DNA of 35,388 bases from positions 1 through 35,388 of IMG/VR virus record IMGVR_UViG_3300043409_000003; one strand, given 5' to 3'. This document shows positions 1 through 35,388 of this stretch, piece after piece. Origin of the DNA: a virus. Both the position numbers and the translations under genes were made by a program. The stretch's first letter is position 1. The number at the start of each line of letters is the position of its first letter. The notes beneath the pieces are model-generated. The model saw only the letters and a list, made by a program, of their open reading frames with translations, was not told the origin of the DNA and did not search any database.

Positions 1-187
1 GCAACTGGCTCAACTTTGGTAGGGTTTCCTGTTACGGGGTTGTACCAAATGACATCATCATCTGCCCAAGTTTCACCAAACGCAGAGCCATCGGTTGTAA
101 TTCCACGCACTAAACCATAAGTTGTAACTCGCCCAAAATCATTATGCGCCAAACTTTCCGTAGCTACGCCAATAATGTCGTTTGGGT
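1..187. repeat. Left copy of imperfect terminal direct repeat
   Basis: Bases 1-187 recur at 35202-35388. Positions 1-127 are identical; the remaining 60 differ at 128, 144, 147, 154, 155, 162 and 185. The whole repeat lies inside the tail-fibre frame. Most changes are silent; two change an amino acid (Val/Ile and Pro/Ala). The exact 127-base match equals a common maximum assembler k-mer, so a circular molecule whose end ran on into a strain variant is the simplest reading (inference). Confidence 0.9.
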
Positions 188-938
188 TTGTGATACCAGA
201 AATTGTGGGCGCAAAAGTAACAACTCCGCTTGCGCCTACCGTTCCAGTATGGTAAATAATTTGAAGTGGAGAGTCTGTAATTGCGGCAGAGGCTTTACCG
301 TAAATAAATAATTCTTCGCCAATTTGCTGAGTAATGTTTCCACCACCCATCCCCGCGTTCCATGAGCCAGTTGAGCCGTTGTACCAAATTTTTCCCGCGG
401 CTAAAGTTACCGCAGCGCCATCGCTAAATTGTTGCGACAAAATGCCACTTGCATTGCCCGTGTCATCAATGGTTGTAACGCTGTTTTGGATTAACTTGCC
501 CGTAGTAGTGTCAAATCTAGTAATGGCGTTATCGGTTGCCGAGGCAGGGCCAACCACATCACCGCTACCACCGCTAACCGCTAAATTGACCTCAGTACCC
601 ACTTGAGTCACCGTCACGCTTGCATTTGCTGACGCTATTGATGTGATGGTCTTTTCTGCGGGTAGGGTTACAAATACGTTCTTTGTGCCTTTGGTGAAGT
701 TAACCAATGCCCCACCGTTGGAAGAACTCAACACCGTGTCTCGGGTTAGCGTGTTAGATGAATAGATGCCTATTCCGACTTCCCAATCGGCATCGCCTTG
801 TATTGTGTAATAGGTGGTAGCACCGTCACCAAGGGACGCAAAGGGCTGAAATCCCACCGCCAATCCGCTAAGGGTAATAGTCCCCGTTCCTATCGTGGTA
901 GTAGTCTGCTTTACCCTATCAAGTAGGACTAGGCTCAT
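1..938 (-). CDS. Tail fibre / receptor-binding protein, N-terminal part (runs off left edge)
   Basis: This gene starts at the ATG at 938-936, which overlaps the portal stop codon as ATGA, and stays open to base 1. The N-terminus MSLVLLDRVKQTTTT, followed by Thr/Gly-rich beta sequence and a TLTRDTVLSSSNGG segment, resembles the start of many podovirus fibre proteins that dock to the tail. The frame joins exactly onto the fragment at 34172-35388 if the terminal repeat is collapsed, giving 655 aa. It is probably translationally coupled to the portal gene. The fibre role comes from composition and resemblance; the receptor is unknown. Confidence 0.75.
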   Translation of the reverse strand, partial: MSLVLLDRVKQTTTTIGTGTITLSGLAVGFQPFASLGDGATTYYTIQGDADWEVGIGIYSSNTLTRDTVLSSSNGGALVNFTKGTKNVFVTLPAEKTITSIASANASVTVTQVGTEVNLAVSGGSGDVVGPASATDNAITRFDTTTGKLIQNSVTTIDDTGNASGILSQQFSDGAAVTLAAGKIWYNGSTGSWNAGMGGGNITQQIGEELFIYGKASAAITDSPLQIIYHTGTVGASGVVTFAPTISGITNPNDIIGVATESLAHNDFGRVTTYGLVRGITTDGSAFGETWADDDVIWYNPVTGNPTKVEPV

Positions 939-26479: not shown

Positions 26480-27397
26480 TTAAACGCTTGGCCAGTTGCC
26501 GTCTTGCACAGACCAAGGCCCAACCAATTGGTTCATGCCGACTGGTGCTAGAGACATCGCTGAGACTGGTACATCTTGAGCCTTGCAGTAACTCAATGCC
26601 CGTGTGAACTCTCCCAATTCAATGCCGTAATCTAGTTTTTTGGCTTTTAGGAAGTAGAACTTCAAACCCGCCATCATTAGGTCATCTGGAAATATAGAGG
26701 TGTCGGTATCCAAAGTAAAAGCGTTTTTTGAGCCTTGATCTGAGCCAGACGCACACACCCAGTAGTTTGAGACATACTCGAAAGAAAAGTTGTACACAGT
26801 CGTAAGGGCTTGGAAGATACGGAATTTGTTGTTGTAGATGCGATAACGCTCGCGTGGGCCAATCGAGATAATGCCACCTTGCAAGAACTGCCAATCCTGA
26901 GATGACTTAGTTCCAAGGTTGCGCCAATGGTCTGTTCTATCCCAATTGGTGTCTGAGATCATCCTGTCATAGCCGTCAGGTAAGTCGTAATCCTGTTTGG
27001 CAAAGGTCATGGAGACCGATGCAGTTGAGGTCGTTACTGGTGCGTTGAGCGTGACTTGTGTGCCTGAGTCAATTGTCAGAATCTCAGCGTAAGGGGTCTG
27101 TCCTGTCCCCGTGATCACATTCCCAACTTGTAATGATGCCGTACTTGGGATTGCTGTAATGACCCGTGAACCACTTGTGATCGTTCCTGTGGTGGAAACC
27201 GCAACTTGGGTTTGCCAGATGTAGGCTTGGACTAAGCGTTGCCACTCAAAATCCCGTACCAAGTCTTTTCCAAGCCTTTGGCATAAGGAGAGAAGTTGAA
27301 TGGTCTGGTTGTTTGTAGACCCTATTACTAGAGGCGGTTGGCTAAGTCCAAGTTCGCCTGAGACTTGATCAACCAACTCCAGTAGGGTATAGGACAT
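26480..27397 (-). CDS. Head-to-tail adaptor protein
   Basis: A 305 aa protein. N-terminal helices (LLELVDQVSGELGL, LLSLCQRLGKDLVRDFEWQ) are followed by an inserted beta domain at about 66-132 (GTITSGSRVITAIPSTASL, GTQVTLNAPVTT) of the type seen in podovirus adaptor and gatekeeper proteins, then YDLPDGYDRMISDTNW, IGPRERYRIYNNKFRIF and FPDDLMMAGLKFYFL. It should form the ring between portal and tail hub. The call comes from family resemblance and the location between the structural cassette and the gp10-like gene. Confidence 0.72.
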   Translation of the reverse strand: MSYTLLELVDQVSGELGLSQPPLVIGSTNNQTIQLLSLCQRLGKDLVRDFEWQRLVQAYIWQTQVAVSTTGTITSGSRVITAIPSTASLQVGNVITGTGQTPYAEILTIDSGTQVTLNAPVTTSTASVSMTFAKQDYDLPDGYDRMISDTNWDRTDHWRNLGTKSSQDWQFLQGGIISIGPRERYRIYNNKFRIFQALTTVYNFSFEYVSNYWVCASGSDQGSKNAFTLDTDTSIFPDDLMMAGLKFYFLKAKKLDYGIELGEFTRALSYCKAQDVPVSAMSLAPVGMNQLVGPWSVQDGNWPSV

Positions 27398-27979
27398 TTA
27401 TTCCACCAATTCTTTTTTAGGTCTGCCAGATTTTTTAGCAGATAACTGATTAACCAATTCCCTCAATTGTGCCATTTCTTCCTCTTGTTGTGCGAGTTTG
27501 GCATCCGTTTCAGCACGAATTTTATCGAATACTGCGCTATCTTTAGCCGCAGCGATAAACGCCCGAGCCTTATCCCGTAAGTCGTTAAAGCCCATGATCT
27601 TGTTGCCTACGCTGTCTGCAAGTTGTGCAAACTGATCAATCGTGAAAATATGCAAAGCCTTGAACTCTGCTTTTTGGGTTTCGCTAATTGCTGACCACAC
27701 ATCAATCGGAGTACCAGAGACCCGTTGTTCTTTCTTTTGCTCAAACCGCGCCCACTCGATTGGGTAGTCCTCAACATCTTGTTCTCTCATAGGACGATCA
27801 ACCACCAAAGTGGAATCCCCAGGCACTAATTTCTTCAAAAACACCTTTTCTTCAAAAATTGGACGCTTTTCAGTCATTGTCTTGAAGTTGTTTTGCACTT
27901 GCACAGTATGGAAAAACACCGCCATCTTGCCTCGGTTGTCTTCCATAAAACTATCATTTGTCCAGTTTGCGTCTTGCAT
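27398..27979 (-). CDS. Conserved structural-module protein with C-terminal coiled coil
   Basis: 193 aa, with AAAGGA upstream of its ATG. The core GTPIDVWSAISETQKAEF, then IFTIDQFAQLADSVGNKIMG resembles a family found near capsid genes in many phages (pattern: GTP-x-W, a TxxQ-type helix, a TIDQLA-like helix). The C-terminal 50 residues are a Glu/Gln-rich coiled coil ending in a basic KKSGRPKKELVE tail. Role unknown; scaffold- or neck-associated is plausible. It is separated by one base from the DUF115 gene. Confidence 0.6.
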   Translation of the reverse strand: MQDANWTNDSFMEDNRGKMAVFFHTVQVQNNFKTMTEKRPIFEEKVFLKKLVPGDSTLVVDRPMREQDVEDYPIEWARFEQKKEQRVSGTPIDVWSAISETQKAEFKALHIFTIDQFAQLADSVGNKIMGFNDLRDKARAFIAAAKDSAVFDKIRAETDAKLAQQEEEMAQLRELVNQLSAKKSGRPKKELVE

Positions 27980-27980
27980 A

Positions 27981-28718
27981 TTAGTTCCTTTGTTTAAGAA
28001 TTTTGGCAGTTTCCTGCATCAGCCCGTCACCATGAAATATAACCTCTGCGTCTTGAGTCTCCAAGAACTTTTCCATCTCTATTGCAGCTTGGCACATCTG
28101 CTTAGTAGTTTGGAATGTTCTCTCCCCCGCTTGGACTAGGATTTTTTCCTGTTCCTTGCCCAAGTGCTCACCCGCGTGTCTGCTCTCTGTAAAACTGTTA
28201 TCCATACCAAAAATATGGAACTTTCTATATCCAAGGGCTGCGCTCACATTCATTGCCCTCATACCTACTGATGACCCCCCACCGATTAGGCTCTCCATCC
28301 CCTCGGGGTGGTTCTCTGCTACCCAAGCGATTGTCCTCAGATCATCCCCGTTCACAAGATGCCATATCTTGACCTGATGCCTCTTTAAAGCCTCAAAGTA
28401 AGTCGGGTGGCACACAGATGCCAAAAGATACTTTGTAGCCTTCTGGGGCTTCTTTAGCATCCTTGCTTTGTGTTCTCTGGGATCACAATCAATATGCCAA
28501 TCAGGTGTTATCCCTCTATCCACTAGAAAGTCGTGCGCCCCTGAGACTGTGATGATCGGGCGTTTGATGTGCGTCCATGTGTCTAGGAGGCTTGGGCCGT
28601 AACAGACGATTGACACCCACCGATCATTAAACTTGTCTCGCTTTTTTAACAATGGGAGGTGTATCGACTTTCCCATCTGGTCGTGCCTCTGAGAATTGGT
28701 CATCACGCCTTTAAGCAT
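27981..28718 (-). CDS. Stand-alone DUF115 (Maf/MptE-like) protein
   Basis: A 245 aa protein homologous to the N-terminal half of the product of 29146-30762: shared CYGPSLL/ASGPSVA, HDFLVDRGITPDW, CDPREH/IDPQEH, LASVCH/IASQCH, KIWH/TIWH, LIGGGSSVGMRAM and FHIFGMDNSF. DUF115 includes archaeal 6-hydroxymethylpterin diphosphokinase (MptE) and the catalytic core of bacterial Maf flagellin glycosyltransferases that use nonulosonic acids. Here a sugar-transfer role is more plausible than pterin synthesis, given the fused and neighbouring transferases. The start at 28718 has GAGGG upstream and overlaps the methyltransferase end by 16 bases. Confidence 0.75.
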   Translation of the reverse strand: MLKGVMTNSQRHDQMGKSIHLPLLKKRDKFNDRWVSIVCYGPSLLDTWTHIKRPIITVSGAHDFLVDRGITPDWHIDCDPREHKARMLKKPQKATKYLLASVCHPTYFEALKRHQVKIWHLVNGDDLRTIAWVAENHPEGMESLIGGGSSVGMRAMNVSAALGYRKFHIFGMDNSFTESRHAGEHLGKEQEKILVQAGERTFQTTKQMCQAAIEMEKFLETQDAEVIFHGDGLMQETAKILKQRN

Positions 28719-29296
28719 TCAACCCTCATATCTCGAAATGGAAAATGGTAGTTTGGCTCACAAAATTTGATTTCTGTCATACCGACAGATTCAAGCATAT
28801 TTCTTAATGGAGTCTGAAACCAACCCCATTTGTGGCACATTGCCTCGCTTTTGTGTTTGGGGTCACCATATAAGGCAAGCAGGGTCATAAAGGGCTGTAT
28901 TGGTTCTTTTTTAACCACGCAGTTGTAAACGTAAGTAAATACCTTGTCCATGCAGGGCAACTCTAAGATCATCTTGCCTTGTGGCTTTAAAACCCGTTTC
29001 CACTCTGTTAGCACTTCAGCAACTTCCCACTCGTAAAAATGCTCTAGCACATGGATAGCTGCCACCGCATCTGCGCTGTCTGAGGCAATCTCTAGTTTTC
29101 TAAGATCGCACTTGATGTCGGAAATATCTGAATGGAGATCGACATTTATCCATCCGTCCCACTTCTTTTTTCCACATCCAAGGTTGTACGCAATGCCGTA
29201 AGTCTCTTCCACTTGTCGATCAGTATTCTTGGCGAGAATTCGTCCCTCACGAACTTCTGCGCCTTGGATATTTGGGTGTTGATGTCCTGTGTCCAT
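28703..29296 (-). CDS. SAM-dependent methyltransferase (class I)
   Basis: 197 aa from ATG 29296, with AAGGA five bases upstream. Motif I is AYNLGCGKKKWDGW (36-49), then INVDL with the acidic ribose-binding Asp at 53; AIHVLEHFYEW (80-90) and LKPQGKMILELP (103-114) are the standard later motifs. The first 151 bases overlap the end of the glycosyltransferase gene in another frame, so motif I itself is read from doubly coding DNA. It is probably a small-molecule/sugar or glycan O-methyltransferase, judging by its neighbours; no DNA target-recognition domain is present. Confidence 0.8.
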   Translation of the reverse strand: MDTGHQHPNIQGAEVREGRILAKNTDRQVEETYGIAYNLGCGKKKWDGWINVDLHSDISDIKCDLRKLEIASDSADAVAAIHVLEHFYEWEVAEVLTEWKRVLKPQGKMILELPCMDKVFTYVYNCVVKKEPIQPFMTLLALYGDPKHKSEAMCHKWGWFQTPLRNMLESVGMTEIKFCEPNYHFPFRDMRVECLKA

Positions 29297-30762
29297 TTAA
29301 TTCCTTCTCTTATGTTGCCTACATAAATATGGGGTATTCCTAAGTCTCTTTCGCTGACCACAAAACACCCTTGTCGGATTGCCTCTACTGCCCTATTAGG
29401 ACTCTTATATTCTGCTGTCGCAGGCATTAAGACAATATCTGCTCTCGCAAATTCTTCTAACATGGTCTCGTAAGACCAAGGAATAGCACCGCCAAAGTTA
29501 GAAACCACCCGTAAGTTATAACCATCTAGGTCTGGCAATATGCGCTCTAGACTGTGCTTATTAACTGCGTGACCATACCAAAGTAGGTTTAGCCCGTTGC
29601 AATGCGGTTTCTCTTCTGGGTACTCGTAAGGGTCACCAATCACAGTAGCATCCCGTCCATGCCCCTTGATAATCTTTGCCATTGTCTGTGTTGGGCAAGT
29701 CACCGCATCCGCTAGTCTCAATGCCTCTTTGTAGTGAACCCAATCAAAGTGGTCATCACAAAAATCCACGATTACCCACGCGCCCCTAGCCTTGGCTCTT
29801 GCCATCTCCATCAGTTCATTCGCTTGGGGTTTGGCAAAGATAAGGGTATCGGCTGAGAAATCATTGAGACTTGCCCACCCCTCGCTCACGATCTTGGCTC
29901 TGTATCGCCAACTAGCGGAAGTCTTGTCACCAAAGTGGATAAATGAAACCCTCTCGTTTGGCTCTGGTTTTTTGTCGATCAAGAATTGCAACTCAACCGC
30001 GTTCTCTTCCCTTTTCTTGATGATCGCTTGAATTAGCCCATGCCCAAACCCGTAATACTGCGCGTCTGGTAGGTAGTCGTAGTAAGTTTGGAAGTGCTCG
30101 GCTTGCAATGCCATAGCTGCGTTGCAATAAAAAGTCTCACCCTCTTGGTCTATCCTGATCTCTGTGAGTTGATCGCCTTCTTTGAGACCCGAGCCGTTGA
30201 CCCTCAGTTTGTCTCCGTCTAAACAAGAATCAAACCCAAATAAAGCAAAGTGTCTCCACCCAAGTACATAGAAAAGGGAAATAGCCCGTAGCCCCGAGGT
30301 CGTACCGCCACCAATCAATAGGCTGTTTTTAGGTCTGTTTTGACCCTTCATCACATACGGATGCCAGATCGTGACCTTATGCCCTTCAAGGTTGTCAAAC
30401 ATAGCCTTGTGGCATTGAGAGGCGATCATGTATTCCACGCCTGTATTGGGCTTATAGAACGATATTCGGTGTTCTTGGGGGTCTATTGCCAAAGCGTAGT
30501 CTGGTATCACCCCGTTGTCTATCAACCAATCGTGTGCGTCTTTAATCGCCACAATTAGGGTTGTTTTGGACATCTCTCTAATGACATCTATCTGCCCCGC
30601 CACGCTCGGCCCACTCGCCACTAGCGTGATCACACCCTCTTTTATTGGCTCTTGTTTTAAAACTTGGGGGTAGCCACGCGCTACCGCATTCTCCATGTTT
30701 TGAAACAAAGTCTCATCGTCAGCAACACACTTACCAACAATCTTTAGGGGAACAAATGCCAT
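29146..30762 (-). CDS. DUF115 domain fused to GT4-like glycosyltransferase
   Basis: A 538 aa protein. Residues 1-240 form a DUF115 domain: LVASGPSVAG (47-56), IDPQEHRISF, MIASQCH, TIWHPY, LLIGGGTTSGLRAI (148-161), FALFGFDSCL. Residues about 270-530 look like a GT-B/GT4 transferase: VSFIHFGDKTSASWRYRAK, LLWYGHAVNKHSL, and the donor-binding block SPNRAVEAIRQGCFVVSERD, then DEFSPRILIDKWKRL at the end. It resembles a fused Maf-type sugar transferase. It follows the capsid and decoration genes behind a hairpin that embeds its ribosome site, suggesting lowered or controlled expression. Acceptor unknown; virion proteins or host surface glycans are candidates. Confidence 0.75.
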   Translation of the reverse strand: MAFVPLKIVGKCVADDETLFQNMENAVARGYPQVLKQEPIKEGVITLVASGPSVAGQIDVIREMSKTTLIVAIKDAHDWLIDNGVIPDYALAIDPQEHRISFYKPNTGVEYMIASQCHKAMFDNLEGHKVTIWHPYVMKGQNRPKNSLLIGGGTTSGLRAISLFYVLGWRHFALFGFDSCLDGDKLRVNGSGLKEGDQLTEIRIDQEGETFYCNAAMALQAEHFQTYYDYLPDAQYYGFGHGLIQAIIKKREENAVELQFLIDKKPEPNERVSFIHFGDKTSASWRYRAKIVSEGWASLNDFSADTLIFAKPQANELMEMARAKARGAWVIVDFCDDHFDWVHYKEALRLADAVTCPTQTMAKIIKGHGRDATVIGDPYEYPEEKPHCNGLNLLWYGHAVNKHSLERILPDLDGYNLRVVSNFGGAIPWSYETMLEEFARADIVLMPATAEYKSPNRAVEAIRQGCFVVSERDLGIPHIYVGNIREGIKWTQDINTQISKAQKFVRDEFSPRILIDKWKRLTALRTTLDVEKRSGTDG

Positions 30763-30770
30763 TACAGAAA

Positions 30771-30794
30771 CCTCTCCCTTTTTAGGGGGAGAGG
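30771..30794 (-). promoter_or_regulatory. Hairpin between capsid genes and the glycosylation cassette, containing the ribosome site
   Basis: CCTCTCCC and GGGAGAGG form a perfect 8-bp stem with an 8-base loop. On the minus strand the 3' arm GGGAGAGG is also the only Shine-Dalgarno-like sequence (8 bases before ATG 30762). After the stem comes TTTCTGT, a weak U-tract. It can act as a leaky terminator after the abundant capsid/decoration message, as an RBS-hiding hairpin, or both. Confidence 0.65.
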
Positions 30795-30801
30795 AGAGGC
30801 G

Positions 30802-31335
30802 TTAGCCAGCACCAACCATCATTAAGCCTGCGTTGTTAACAACACAGAATGGGGCGGATGCAGAGGTTGCAGAAGTGTTTGCAACGATACCTTGGATGAA
30901 ACCAGCCGACACAGTTGTATCGTCCAATTTACCAGCCGTAGCAGTCGTATACAAAGGCACTTTAGGTTGGCAAGCAACCAACAAGTTGACTTTCACAACG
31001 CCATTCAATGCAATCCAACCGTAGTAGGAAGAAGTGATAGCGTTTTGTGCAAAGCCAACCATGTTCCAACCAAGCGCGGCAGCGTTTGTCGTAGTGACAG
31101 GCACAGCGCGGAGAACAGGAGTAACACTCGCTGAATCTCCAAATGTGCTCATAATCACAGCGTCATACGCTGCAATGTCTGACTCTGCGCGAGCAAAGAT
31201 ATAGACACCATTGTTGCTCGTGTTTACGCGAGTGCCTGGGGTGACAGGAAATAGCGACGTAGAGCCTGCGGAGGTTGACGCATAAGTTGCCGTCAAGTCA
31301 ACGCCAATTTTTCCATCGGTGATGTAATCAGCCAT
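30802..31335 (-). CDS. Head decoration-like protein
   Basis: A 177 aa protein encoded immediately after the capsid gene, with GGAG upstream. It is Ala/Thr/Val/Ser-rich and beta-forming throughout (FPVTPGTRVNTSNNGVYIFA, YDAVIMSTFG, GWIALNGVVKVNLLVA, PLYTTATAGKLDDTT). The segments around VPLYTTATAGKL resemble head-decoration proteins that stabilise HK97-type shells. No signal peptide or catalytic motif. Function is inferred from composition and the classic position. Confidence 0.65.
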   Translation of the reverse strand: MADYITDGKIGVDLTATYASTSAGSTSLFPVTPGTRVNTSNNGVYIFARAESDIAAYDAVIMSTFGDSASVTPVLRAVPVTTTNAAALGWNMVGFAQNAITSSYYGWIALNGVVKVNLLVACQPKVPLYTTATAGKLDDTTVSAGFIQGIVANTSATSASAPFCVVNNAGLMMVGAG

Positions 31336-31340
31336 GATTT

Positions 31341-32321
31341 TTACTCCGTCATAATGCCTTGGAACTGAAGTCCCGAGGCTGTCATGTTACCCGCCCATCC
31401 AATCAAGCGCACAATTGCATCTTGGTTGGTACTCATGCGCTCATCGCCTATTGGGACGAAGTTGCGGTTAGTGTGGGGACGGAAGAAAATGTATTTCGTG
31501 TTAAGGAAATACCCCGTGGATGTCGGAATATTACCCCCGATACCACCATCTAGAACCACATCTGCGTTCATGTACTTAGAGGCAACAAAGCCTAATTCGG
31601 CCATCTTGCTTGAGCCAGGGAAACGCTGAATGTTCTGTAAAGAAGCCATGAAGAATGACCACAAGTTGTTATCCAACAAGATCAAGTCCACAACATCTGA
31701 ACCGCGAGAGGTCTTGGCATACAAACGATTGAAACCAGTTTGAATGTTAGACGCGCTTGCGCTTACACCGAGGTCGCTAGAGAAGTCAAAGGTCTGGTTT
31801 TGCCAGAAAGACCAAGTAGCACGATCAATACCGCCAACAACACCAGTTGAGGGTGATGCGACAACCATTGCCTGCAAGCCTGTGATCTGCTTACCATTGT
31901 TCGCTGTTCCGTCCGAGTAAATACCCGTAGAGATCAAGTTCTCAATAGAAGCCTCTGCTACATCTAAACGGGCATCAAACAAATCAATGATCTGCTCTTC
32001 GCCTGAGTTTTGCAACATCTCAAGTCCGTTGATGGTAACTGCCACGGCAGCTTGTTTGATCGGGAACTGAGCCGCGCTGATCACATCCGCAGGGGATATG
32101 TTCAACACTTCAGCACCAGAGTAATACATGGCTGTGGAGTTTGCTTGGAATGACAATTCTTGAAGAATAGTCGAACCACCCGTAAAAGGCTTGTAACGGC
32201 CTTTCTCTCTCAGGCGCGTCAACAAAGCATTGTTTTTAGTCACGTTGTCTGCAACGATGCCAGAACGCGACTCAATGGTGGTTGCTAATACGTCTGAGTA
32301 ATTACTATTGGCGTATGCCAT
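31341..32321 (-). CDS. Major capsid protein
   Basis: A 326 aa protein behind AAGGGG. It has the layout of an HK97-fold coat: N-arm (LATTIESRSGIVADNVTKNN), E-loop region (GGSTILQELSFQANSTAMYY), long spine helix (EEQIIDLFDARLDVAEASIE) and the P/A domain with IYSDGTANNGKQITGLQAM, VDLILLDNNLWSFFMAS and SSKMAELGFVASKYMNADV. It closely resembles coat proteins of uncultured aquatic podoviruses. It is preceded by the scaffold gene and followed by the decoration gene. No cleavage site or protease gene is evident. Confidence 0.9.
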   Translation of the reverse strand: MAYANSNYSDVLATTIESRSGIVADNVTKNNALLTRLREKGRYKPFTGGSTILQELSFQANSTAMYYSGAEVLNISPADVISAAQFPIKQAAVAVTINGLEMLQNSGEEQIIDLFDARLDVAEASIENLISTGIYSDGTANNGKQITGLQAMVVASPSTGVVGGIDRATWSFWQNQTFDFSSDLGVSASASNIQTGFNRLYAKTSRGSDVVDLILLDNNLWSFFMASLQNIQRFPGSSKMAELGFVASKYMNADVVLDGGIGGNIPTSTGYFLNTKYIFFRPHTNRNFVPIGDERMSTNQDAIVRLIGWAGNMTASGLQFQGIMTE

Positions 32322-34143: not shown

Positions 34144-34175
34144 CAGTACGCCTCAAAGATATTTAATTTTGTCAT
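34143..34175 (-). CDS. Ten-residue coupling ORF between fibre and downstream gene
   Basis: ATG 34175 overlaps the fibre TGA as ATGA, ten codons follow (MTKLNIFEAY), and the TGA overlaps the next ATG as TGATG. The short frame contains GAGG for the next gene. It may simply keep ribosomes moving from the fibre gene to the next one, or be the remnant of a longer N-terminus lost by frameshift. Low confidence as a functional peptide. Confidence 0.3.
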   Translation of the reverse strand: MTKLNIFEAY

Positions 34176-35388
34176 GTCCAGTTTCCTACCGAGATTACTG
34201 TGTTTGTTCCTACTGGGTAGCACTTAAACCAAGTGTCTACGCCAATAACTGCGGCACTAGCCGTTGTTAATTGTATGCTTGGAATGATTGTGCCAGCACC
34301 GTTGATTCTAAAAATACCTTTTACTATTGCAGATGCCGCAGTTCCAACTGCCGCAGTAACAATGTTTCCAGTCGCACCAACCGTTGCTCGCCAAGATGTA
34401 CCCCCCGCTGCCGCAGTTTGTTGAGTGGTTGAATCAAGTCCAAAAGCGTGCCATGCCGCACTTGTAAACGTAGCCGTTCCCGCCCCAACAATAGAAAATC
34501 CCATATTTCCCGATGTTGCAGACATAGCACTTACGTTAATGGACATTTCAAAAAAGTAAGAGGTTGATGCCCCAACCGTCAACGCACCACTTGTTAAACC
34601 TCCAGTACCCGTAGTATTATCAAATATTGACTGCAACAATGTGTTGCTAGTCATTGTCTTTGTGCCTGTTCTGGCAACAAAGTGTTCAATAACAGAAACC
34701 GCACGATTGCTTGCTATTGGAGTGGCGTAAAAAACTTTGCCATCATATTCGCACGCACCAGCCGCAGGGGTTGTTAAATTTGTGCCTGTTACAAAATCTA
34801 GTGGCGCAACTGTCGTAGTTCCTGCGCTTAAATTTACAGTAGAGAAATTGCCTGTATTGGGTGCTGTTCCACCAATAATCGGAGGGCTAGATAAGTCTAA
34901 TGTTCCACCCAAAGTAAGGTTGCCAGAGGAAGTGACTGTGCCTGTTAAGGTGATGCCGTTTACTGTGCCTGTACCGCCAACGCTTGTGACAGTTCCTAAA
35001 CCTAAAGCAGATGATGTGACATTTTTCCAATAGCCTGCCGCGTTGTCATACGCAATTAAATTGTTATTAGCCAAAGTTCCAAATTGAACATTGGAATCTG
35101 TACCACCAAGTGTAGAACCTCGTTGCAATCCCACTTGAAACGAGCCAGAACCGCCCGAACCCGCTTTGACTACAAGGCCAACTTGTACCTTGATGTAAGG
35201 TGCAACTGGCTCAACTTTGGTAGGGTTTCCTGTTACGGGGTTGTACCAAATGACATCATCATCTGCCCAAGTTTCACCAAACGCAGAGCCATCGGTTGTA
35301 ATTCCACGCACTAAACCATAAGTTGTAATTCGCCCAAAATCATTGTGTGCCAAAGATTCCGTGGCTACGCCAATAATGTCGTTTGCGT
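34172..35388 (-). CDS. Tail fibre / receptor-binding protein, C-terminal part (runs off right edge)
   Basis: Open from the right edge (405 full codons plus two bases) to TGA at 34172. It continues the frame of the left fragment: SLAHNDFGR, TTYGLVRGITTDGS and YNPVTGNPTKVEP are duplicated in the terminal repeat. The shaft (GTVTSVGGTGTVNGITLTG; NLTLGGTLDLSSPPIIGG) leads to a C-terminal beta domain, about the last 150 residues (YFFEMSINVSAMSATSG, GTATFTSAAWHAFGLD, GIFRINGAGTIIPSIQLTT, WFKCYPVGTNTVISVGNW), a frequent phage receptor-binding jelly-roll type. The apparent start at 35353 is a TTG inside the gene, not a real start. Confidence 0.78.
   Translation of the reverse strand, partial: ANDIIGVATESLAHNDFGRITTYGLVRGITTDGSAFGETWADDDVIWYNPVTGNPTKVEPVAPYIKVQVGLVVKAGSGGSGSFQVGLQRGSTLGGTDSNVQFGTLANNNLIAYDNAAGYWKNVTSSALGLGTVTSVGGTGTVNGITLTGTVTSSGNLTLGGTLDLSSPPIIGGTAPNTGNFSTVNLSAGTTTVAPLDFVTGTNLTTPAAGACEYDGKVFYATPIASNRAVSVIEHFVARTGTKTMTSNTLLQSIFDNTTGTGGLTSGALTVGASTSYFFEMSINVSAMSATSGNMGFSIVGAGTATFTSAAWHAFGLDSTTQQTAAAGGTSWRATVGATGNIVTAAVGTAASAIVKGIFRINGAGTIIPSIQLTTASAAVIGVDTWFKCYPVGTNTVISVGNWT
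35202..35388. repeat. Right copy of imperfect terminal direct repeat
   Basis: This is the partner of 1-187. Collapsing the two copies gives a 35,201 bp circle and joins the right-hand and left-hand fibre fragments in one frame. The diverged 60 bases at the extreme right carry mostly synonymous changes, including a two-base AGT/TCT serine swap. That is what related strains under protein-level selection show, not sequencing noise. Confidence 0.9.

Follow-up and report, generated by a model that had tools for sequence, protein, structure and literature searches.

The window analysed here, 35,388 nucleotides in length, is IMG/VR virus record IMGVR_UViG_3300043409_000003 (positions 1 to 35,388). 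The contig belongs to an Mx8-like podovirus: its genes for portal, capsid, p50, adaptor and amidase-like protein are homologous and follow the same order. Its capsid protein is 50–57% identical to the capsid proteins of phages Mx8, Mx9, BUCT555 and ppBjS10J-1, and comparison of the portal protein pointed to the same phages. Mx8 and Mx9 are Myxococcus phages, BUCT555 is a Stenotrophomonas phage and ppBjS10J-1 a Bradyrhizobium phage.

Three genes, DUFa_GT, a methyltransferase gene and DUFb, form a cassette flanked by the decoration gene on one side and the Mx8 p50 homologue on the other, all coded on the minus strand (Table 1). Along that strand the gene order is scaffold-like, major capsid, decoration-like, DUFa_GT, methyltransferase, DUFb, p50 homologue, adaptor, amidase-like and fibre genes. 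The decoration-like gene lies at a position homologous to Mx8 p49, and the p50 homologue adjoins head genes in deposited relatives too. The stretch between the capsid/decoration genes and the p50 homologue is hereafter called the slot.

Table 1. Features of the slot and its surroundings in the window.
Feature	Coordinates	Strand	Length	Basis
SU10-type adaptor / tail protein, behind the slot	26480..27397	-		PF24175, 27.3 bits (cut-off 27); phrog_6013, E 1.9e-42
p50 homologue (Mx8), right slot border	27398..27979	-		phrog_20268, E 6.7e-14
DUFb, stand-alone DUF115 protein	27981..28718	-	245 aa	PF01973, E 7e-17
SAM methyltransferase (Methyltransf_11)	28703..29296	-	197 aa	PF08241, E 8e-10
DUFa_GT	29146..30762	-	538 aa	DUF115/Maf-like domain, residues ~7-255; weakly GT4/GT-B-like domain, residues ~268-490
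Terminator-like hairpin, between decoration gene and DUFa_GT	30771..30794	-		Predicted structure
Decoration-like virion protein, left slot border	30802..31335	-		phrog_29386 (virion structural protein), E 4.3e-6
Major capsid protein, Mx8-like	31341..32321	-		phrog_9953, E 1.2e-103

An earlier note on this DNA had described two DUF115 proteins around a SAM methyltransferase, and profile searches bore this out at that place, with all scores above the Pfam cut-offs. PF01973 (MptE-like/DUF115) matched DUFb with 62.2 bits and the DUF115 domain of DUFa_GT with 63.5 bits (E 2.7e-17), each against a cut-off of 34.6, and Methyltransf_11 matched the methyltransferase with 39.7 bits against 21.2. The motifs that the note had picked out by eye (GPS, DPxEH, ASxCH, IWH and LIGGGxxxGxRA) were all present in both DUF115 proteins of the window and mostly kept across relatives; the two domains are about 32% identical.

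The methyltransferase gene starts while DUFa_GT still has about 150 bases to run, and its first ~50 codons overlap the latter in another frame. These codons include SAM motif I, LGCG, which is invariant in the alignment of related methyltransferases. In 81 relatives the two genes still share at least 130 bases, and in these the methyltransferase and DUFb genes overlap by 4–19 bases. Some 90 viral contigs of close relatives preserve the order and place of the three genes wherever this stretch is present. The dN/dS ratio was 0.03–0.10 for all three genes in relatives where it was computable; the trio is under strong purifying selection.

Comparison of predicted structures with Maf and MptE, a check proposed in the note, yielded matches for both DUF115 proteins (Z 12.8–18.4). 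The AF2 model of DUFb (pLDDT 77.7, pTM 0.81) was aligned by VIA-align with the Maf structure 5mu5 (Z 16.9, 195 residues aligned, rmsd 3.4), with MptE 8sd5 (Z 14.1) and with Cst-II 1ro7 (Z 10.6). The model of the DUF115 part of DUFa_GT matched 5mu5 with Z 18.4 (218 aligned, rmsd 3.0) and 8sd5 with Z 12.8. Overall, the best structural matches of the DUF115 models were Maf glycosyltransferase, MptE and sialyltransferases of families GT42 and GT29. At the sequence level, a DUFa profile found 5mu5 among PDB sequences at E 0.0044, and a phmmer search of PDB sequences with DUFb gave chance matches only.

Across the slot-wide alignment, overall identity is low, yet the nucleotide-pocket motifs (GPS, D, W-H, GGG and GxD) are retained. 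Single-motif deviations occur in a few slot DUF115 members. One feature counts against the sugar-transfer reading: the Asn of the Cst-II motif GNGPS is replaced here by Tyr or Ser.

The note had also claimed a GT4 domain fused to one of the DUF115 domains. The fusion is present; the GT4 assignment is weak, the C-terminal domain scoring below the Pfam cut-offs for both Glyco_trans_1_4 (17.7 against 27 bits, E 0.0044) and Glyco_trans_1_2 (15.4 against 25 bits). A match to either of two GT families at E 0.01 was reached by 3–4 of 12 members. The C-terminal model, of low confidence (pLDDT below 50 at residues 447–538), aligned with several GT-B enzymes at Z ~7–8, and the domain may be regarded as weakly GT-B/GT4-like.

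A tblastn search of 50,697 phage records with the three cassette proteins gave no match at E 1e-5. When E values up to 1 were admitted, only weak matches to the GT region appeared, in Justusliebigvirus/phi92-like phages. Two other slot DUF115 proteins had no match by tblastn at 1e-3, and a scan of 84,980 species genomes brought up no relative of the fusion protein. Eight deposited Mx8-like phages were examined; they contain the decoration-like gene and p50, and no DUF115 between capsid and adaptor. In BUCT555 the slot holds lysis genes (holin/endolysin).

The slot was then surveyed more broadly. A capsid-anchored scan of species genomes returned 52 loci, two of them with DUF115, both between the decoration gene and p50. 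One, in a Gemmatimonadaceae MAG (L174), has a lone DUF115; the other, in a Rhodopila MAG (L220), encodes a single 702-aa protein combining a phrog_1962 GT, DUF115 and an FkbM methyltransferase. In viral contigs the same kind of scan found DUF115 in 20 of 80 loci, always within the slot. Among 30 enlarged slots (>1200 bases, both borders visible), 20 contained DUF115 and 10 did not. HNH-like ORFs also occupy the slot in some loci.

To be independent of a capsid anchor, further scans used DUF115 itself as the key. The first one added 79 new loci, of which 71 showed both slot borders, seven showed one and one showed none, the borderless locus (L393) being a 5.5-kb fragment. A second scan with a different DUF115 alignment added 16 loci (nine with both borders, seven with one), bringing the sums to 80, 14 and 1 of 95, respectively. 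The first scan covered the best 80 of at least 559 relatives and the queries of both came from slot members; the result therefore covers this DUF115 subfamily rather than all phage DUF115 proteins, others of which could be missed. Eight diverse lone DUF115 proteins were aligned as well, and this alignment proved too divergent for use as a query. PF01973 was recognised at cut-off level in the window proteins, at the two genome loci and in 17/17 capsid-anchored slot proteins scanned, and with E of at most 0.001 in 54/54 DUF115-anchored slot proteins scanned.

The slot is thus a recurrent DUF115 site in environmental Mx8-like relatives, and the window cassette is one form of it. The term "phage cassette" used in the note describes a real unit and is too narrow for the site as a whole; the placement that it gave, behind capsid and decoration genes and ahead of tail-adaptor genes, was confirmed in the window and recurs across the survey. 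Mapped onto a capsid tree with 123 loci, DUF115 presence changes at least 13 times, which indicates that the slot was filled or emptied repeatedly. The slot protein of L340, contig IMGVR_UViG_2837455513_000003, whose number suggests an origin from an isolate, was searched against 299 genomes of the family and 385 of the class to which the Rhodopila MAG belongs; the MAG itself and a single distant match were all that came up. A DUF115 protein of a bacterial genome (L401) lies beside a terminase-like ORF and two sulfotransferase-like ORFs, all named by eye, with no Mx8-like head genes within 8 kb.

The enzymes accompanying DUF115 are swapped between loci. The window combines DUF115-GT4-like, Methyltransf_11 and DUF115. 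Elsewhere we found GT-DUF115-Methyltransf_24 fusions (L224, L252, L258, L285 and probably L227, whose N-terminal part lay outside the check), the GT-DUF115-FkbM fusion of L220, DUF115-FkbM (L226, read without the N-terminal part) and DUF115 joined to a methyltransferase of type 23/25 (L253, L276, L303). Separate genes are also common: a methyltransferase with GT-DUF115 (L265), DUF115 with a separate GT (L290, L414), GT-DUF115 with a separate FkbM methyltransferase behind it (e.g. L330, L359, L360), and FkbM with a sulfotransferase-like protein and GT-DUF115 (L366, L370). A hexapeptide acetyltransferase accompanies DUF115 in L301 and L383, and DUF115 stands alone in L266, L286 and L293. Methyltransferase families among the partners include Methyltransf_24/25/21. 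The partner GT was assigned to phrog_1962 by profile in L220, L265 and L290 and by a home-made profile elsewhere. The slot thus holds two apparently unrelated glycosyltransferase types, with partners either fused or separate. The constancy of DUF115 in the later scans is by design, since it was the search key; in the capsid-anchored scan, where it was not, DUF115 was still the commonest extra slot content.

The note had treated the DUF115 pair as the key feature and a hint of a heteromeric enzyme. As a key feature the pair was not supported: most relatives carry one DUF115, so a heteromeric paired enzyme is not required. Pairs occur in the window clade and, separately, in L375 and in L413, where the copies lie either side of p50. 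A recent duplication giving rise to DUFa and DUFb was considered as well; the DUF115 tree gave it no support, and joint and separate origin were not distinguished (p-AU 0.41).

We consider it moderately probable that the slot houses a modular Maf-like glycan-attachment unit, which O-glycosylates a virion protein and then extends and caps the sugar to give a short glycan. The sugar-transfer chemistry suggested in the note agrees with the Maf/MptE/sialyltransferase-like fold and with the GT, methyl-, sulfo- and acetyltransferase partners in the slot. From these data we infer a catalytic activity, a donor, an acceptor and an order of steps, although a common fold is in itself no proof of activity. 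Acting in the infected cell's cytoplasm, the DUF115 domain, Maf-like and of sialyltransferase fold, would attach a nucleotide-activated sugar directly to Ser/Thr residues of a virion protein. The donor would probably be a CMP-sugar of host origin, e.g. Kdo or a nonulosonic acid. The acceptor would be a virion protein from the same operon, most plausibly a decoration or head protein, and the decoration protein of the window is a candidate. The GT domain would extend the glycan after the first sugar, and the methyltransferase, or elsewhere an acetyl- or sulfotransferase, would cap it. More tentative is the general proposal that the fixed slot represents Maf-related cytosolic O-glycosylation of virions, in which the core transferase stays constant and capping enzymes are swapped, giving related phages different sugar coats; we regard this as a serious possibility that falls somewhat short of probable.

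Ser/Thr enrichment was tried as a pointer to the acceptor and dropped. The Ser+Thr fraction of the decoration protein was 0.197 in DUF115-positive and 0.160 in DUF115-negative phages, and this raw signal was not significant after phylogenetic correction (kinship-corrected p = 0.14). Values for capsid and adaptor (p = 0.01 and 0.03) did not survive nine tests.

The main rival, rather unlikely in our estimate, is that the module alters a host surface glycan late in infection, for superinfection exclusion or release, and that the slot merely tolerates extra genes. The classing of phrog_1962 glycosyltransferases under moron/host takeover speaks for it, as does the slot content: lysis genes and HNH-like ORFs are also accepted, and a third of the enlarged slots do without DUF115. 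Since such unrelated genes also enter the slot, position alone is no proof of a virion target. On the other hand, the window cassette encodes no flippase, membrane protein or lipid-carrier enzyme among its ORFs, and no membrane segment was detected in its proteins (highest 19-residue hydropathy 1.35). Such soluble proteins fit cytosolic protein modification as carried out by Maf, and the late head-operon position is kept in 94/95 DUF115-anchored loci. A virion target therefore appears preferable to the host surface, given the constant place in the head operon together with soluble enzymes. If the glycan were carried by tail or fibre proteins instead of the head, it would change host recognition. 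The p50, adaptor and fibre genes do follow the cassette in the same direction, and the Ser+Thr comparison leaves tail-side proteins among the possible acceptors; by position, however, the cassette adjoins the capsid/decoration genes and lies several genes away from the fibre gene, and we judge this version improbable.

Two further explanations dispense with glycan transfer by DUF115. MptE is the second-best structural match of both proteins and gives the Pfam family its name, which would suit an MptE-like pyrophosphokinase or other nucleotide enzyme without a glycan role. Maf nevertheless matches better, the partner enzymes are of GT, methyl-, sulfo- and acetyltransferase type, and the scan of slot proteins turned up no pterin genes, making this very improbable. 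The position among head genes would suit sugar-binding, non-catalytic structural components of the head; the retention of nucleotide-pocket motifs at low identity and the enzymatic nature of the partner domains argue against it, and we rate it the least probable of all.

Under the preferred reading, a virion-directed Maf-like unit, Maf itself is among the closest known systems. The C. botulinum enzyme, which was co-expressed with flagellin in a laboratory E. coli strain, attaches CMP-activated Neu5Ac or Kdo to flagellin Ser/Thr by O-glycosylation; the same source likens the central domain of M. magneticum Maf to Cst-II (PMC11339370). The phage DUF115 domains share with the central Maf_flag10 domain (PF01973, 5mu5) the Pfam family, the fold and the GPS and GGG motifs. 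Maf is soluble and acts on a cytosolic protein before assembly, and the same may apply to the phage proteins. In contrast, the N- and C-terminal domains of Maf are absent from the phage proteins: DUFb has just 245 aa, DUFa begins with DUF115, and the match covers approximately residues 244–503 of 5mu5. The phage domains, moreover, are encoded among head genes and joined to GT or methyltransferase domains, and no flagellin is involved. PF01973 and a similar fold are common to archaeal MptE/HPPK (8sd5), whereas the phage partners are glycan enzymes and no pterin-pathway neighbours were seen. With GT42 enzymes Cst-I/Cst-II, the fold (Z ~10) and the GPS loop are shared at ~11–14% identity.

Mycobacteriophages Che8 and Rita provide known examples of virion glycosylation, as reported in PMC11256854, with phage-encoded glycosyltransferases linked to sugar on capsid proteins. 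They are a different phage group, with no DUF115 reported in the text consulted, and the GT genes of Maravista lie near the genome end, unlike the slot behind the capsid gene in Mx8-like phages. Mx8, Mx9, BUCT555 and ppBjS10J-1 have the homologous head operon and slot borders, with a slot lacking DUF115. DUF115/Maf enzymes and phage virion glycosylation are each known separately; in the literature searched, which takes in few of the subscription journals, nothing described the two brought together in a fixed, modular slot of Mx8-like phages. Nor did that literature contain a characterised phage system of such composition, in line with the note.

Few cases of sugar-bearing phage particles are known. 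If the proposal is correct, a widespread environmental phage group glycosylates its virions with a family so far mainly tied to flagella, and a function would be assigned to a protein family hardly recognised by the phage family library used. Small soluble Maf-like transferases (245–270 aa) would then become available for structural work and in-vitro protein glycosylation. The fixed slot with exchangeable enzymes offers a simple genetic handle, through slot-positive and slot-negative relatives or slot deletion.

The hairpin upstream of DUFa_GT is conserved as a structure: it was predicted in 40 distinct sequences of relatives, among which the stem letters vary. We read it as an element of the operon that would reduce expression of downstream genes. 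A role as a cassette-specific regulator was ruled out: comparable hairpins follow the decoration gene in DUF115-negative relatives, and the hairpin is therefore a feature of the operon, not of the cassette. By eye, its 3' arm contains the sole Shine-Dalgarno-like stretch ahead of the DUFa_GT start.

The interval between DUF115 and the adaptor gene in many relatives encodes proteins of 119-141 aa that appeared Ser/Thr/Ala-rich by eye; these are possible candidates for a virion spike or acceptor. One such protein, in L382, weakly matched a major head protein family.

Features in the window and at loci in other viral contigs or genomes (L numbers)
Feature	Location	Strand	Position or host
Small Ser/Thr/Ala-rich (by eye) proteins	L379:6008-6391; L409:3682-4406; L413:9310-9735; others		DUF115-adaptor interval
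HNH-like ORFs (by eye)	L320, L331, L349, L352		Inside the slot, between DUF115 and methyltransferase
Out-of-frame DUFa_GT/methyltransferase overlap, ~150 bases	window 29146-29296
Ser/Thr-rich mosaic gene, apparently in two parts	window 3-938 and 34172-35386	-	Between portal and scaffold genes
Terminator-like hairpin	window 30771-30794	-	Between decoration gene and cassette
Adjoining ORFs: one terminase-like, two sulfotransferase-like, and DUF115	L401:2650-8056		Bacterial genome
Gene annotated alpha-2,3-sialyltransferase, with adjoining glycosyltransferase-like ORF	L315:7478-9315		Citrobacter phage phiNP

Because SAM motif I of the methyltransferase is encoded inside its overlap with the gene of DUFa_GT, the fused DUF115 protein, the GTxG at the DUFa_GT C-terminus may be a by-product. 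Across 40 distinct relative sequences, pairing of the terminator-like hairpin was maintained with changing stem letters. The 3' arm of this hairpin appears to serve as the Shine-Dalgarno site for DUFa_GT.

The apparently split gene at the window ends has a Ser/Thr content of 23-24%. The contig seems to have been cut within this single mosaic gene, and comparison with relatives suggests that the two ends are joined.

The genome carrying the L401 group belongs to the same class as the Rhodopila MAG; no Mx8-like head genes were found near this group. In phiNP, the annotated sialyltransferase gene precedes the terminase genes and has a glycosyltransferase-like ORF next to it; this unrelated phage may carry a module of comparable kind.
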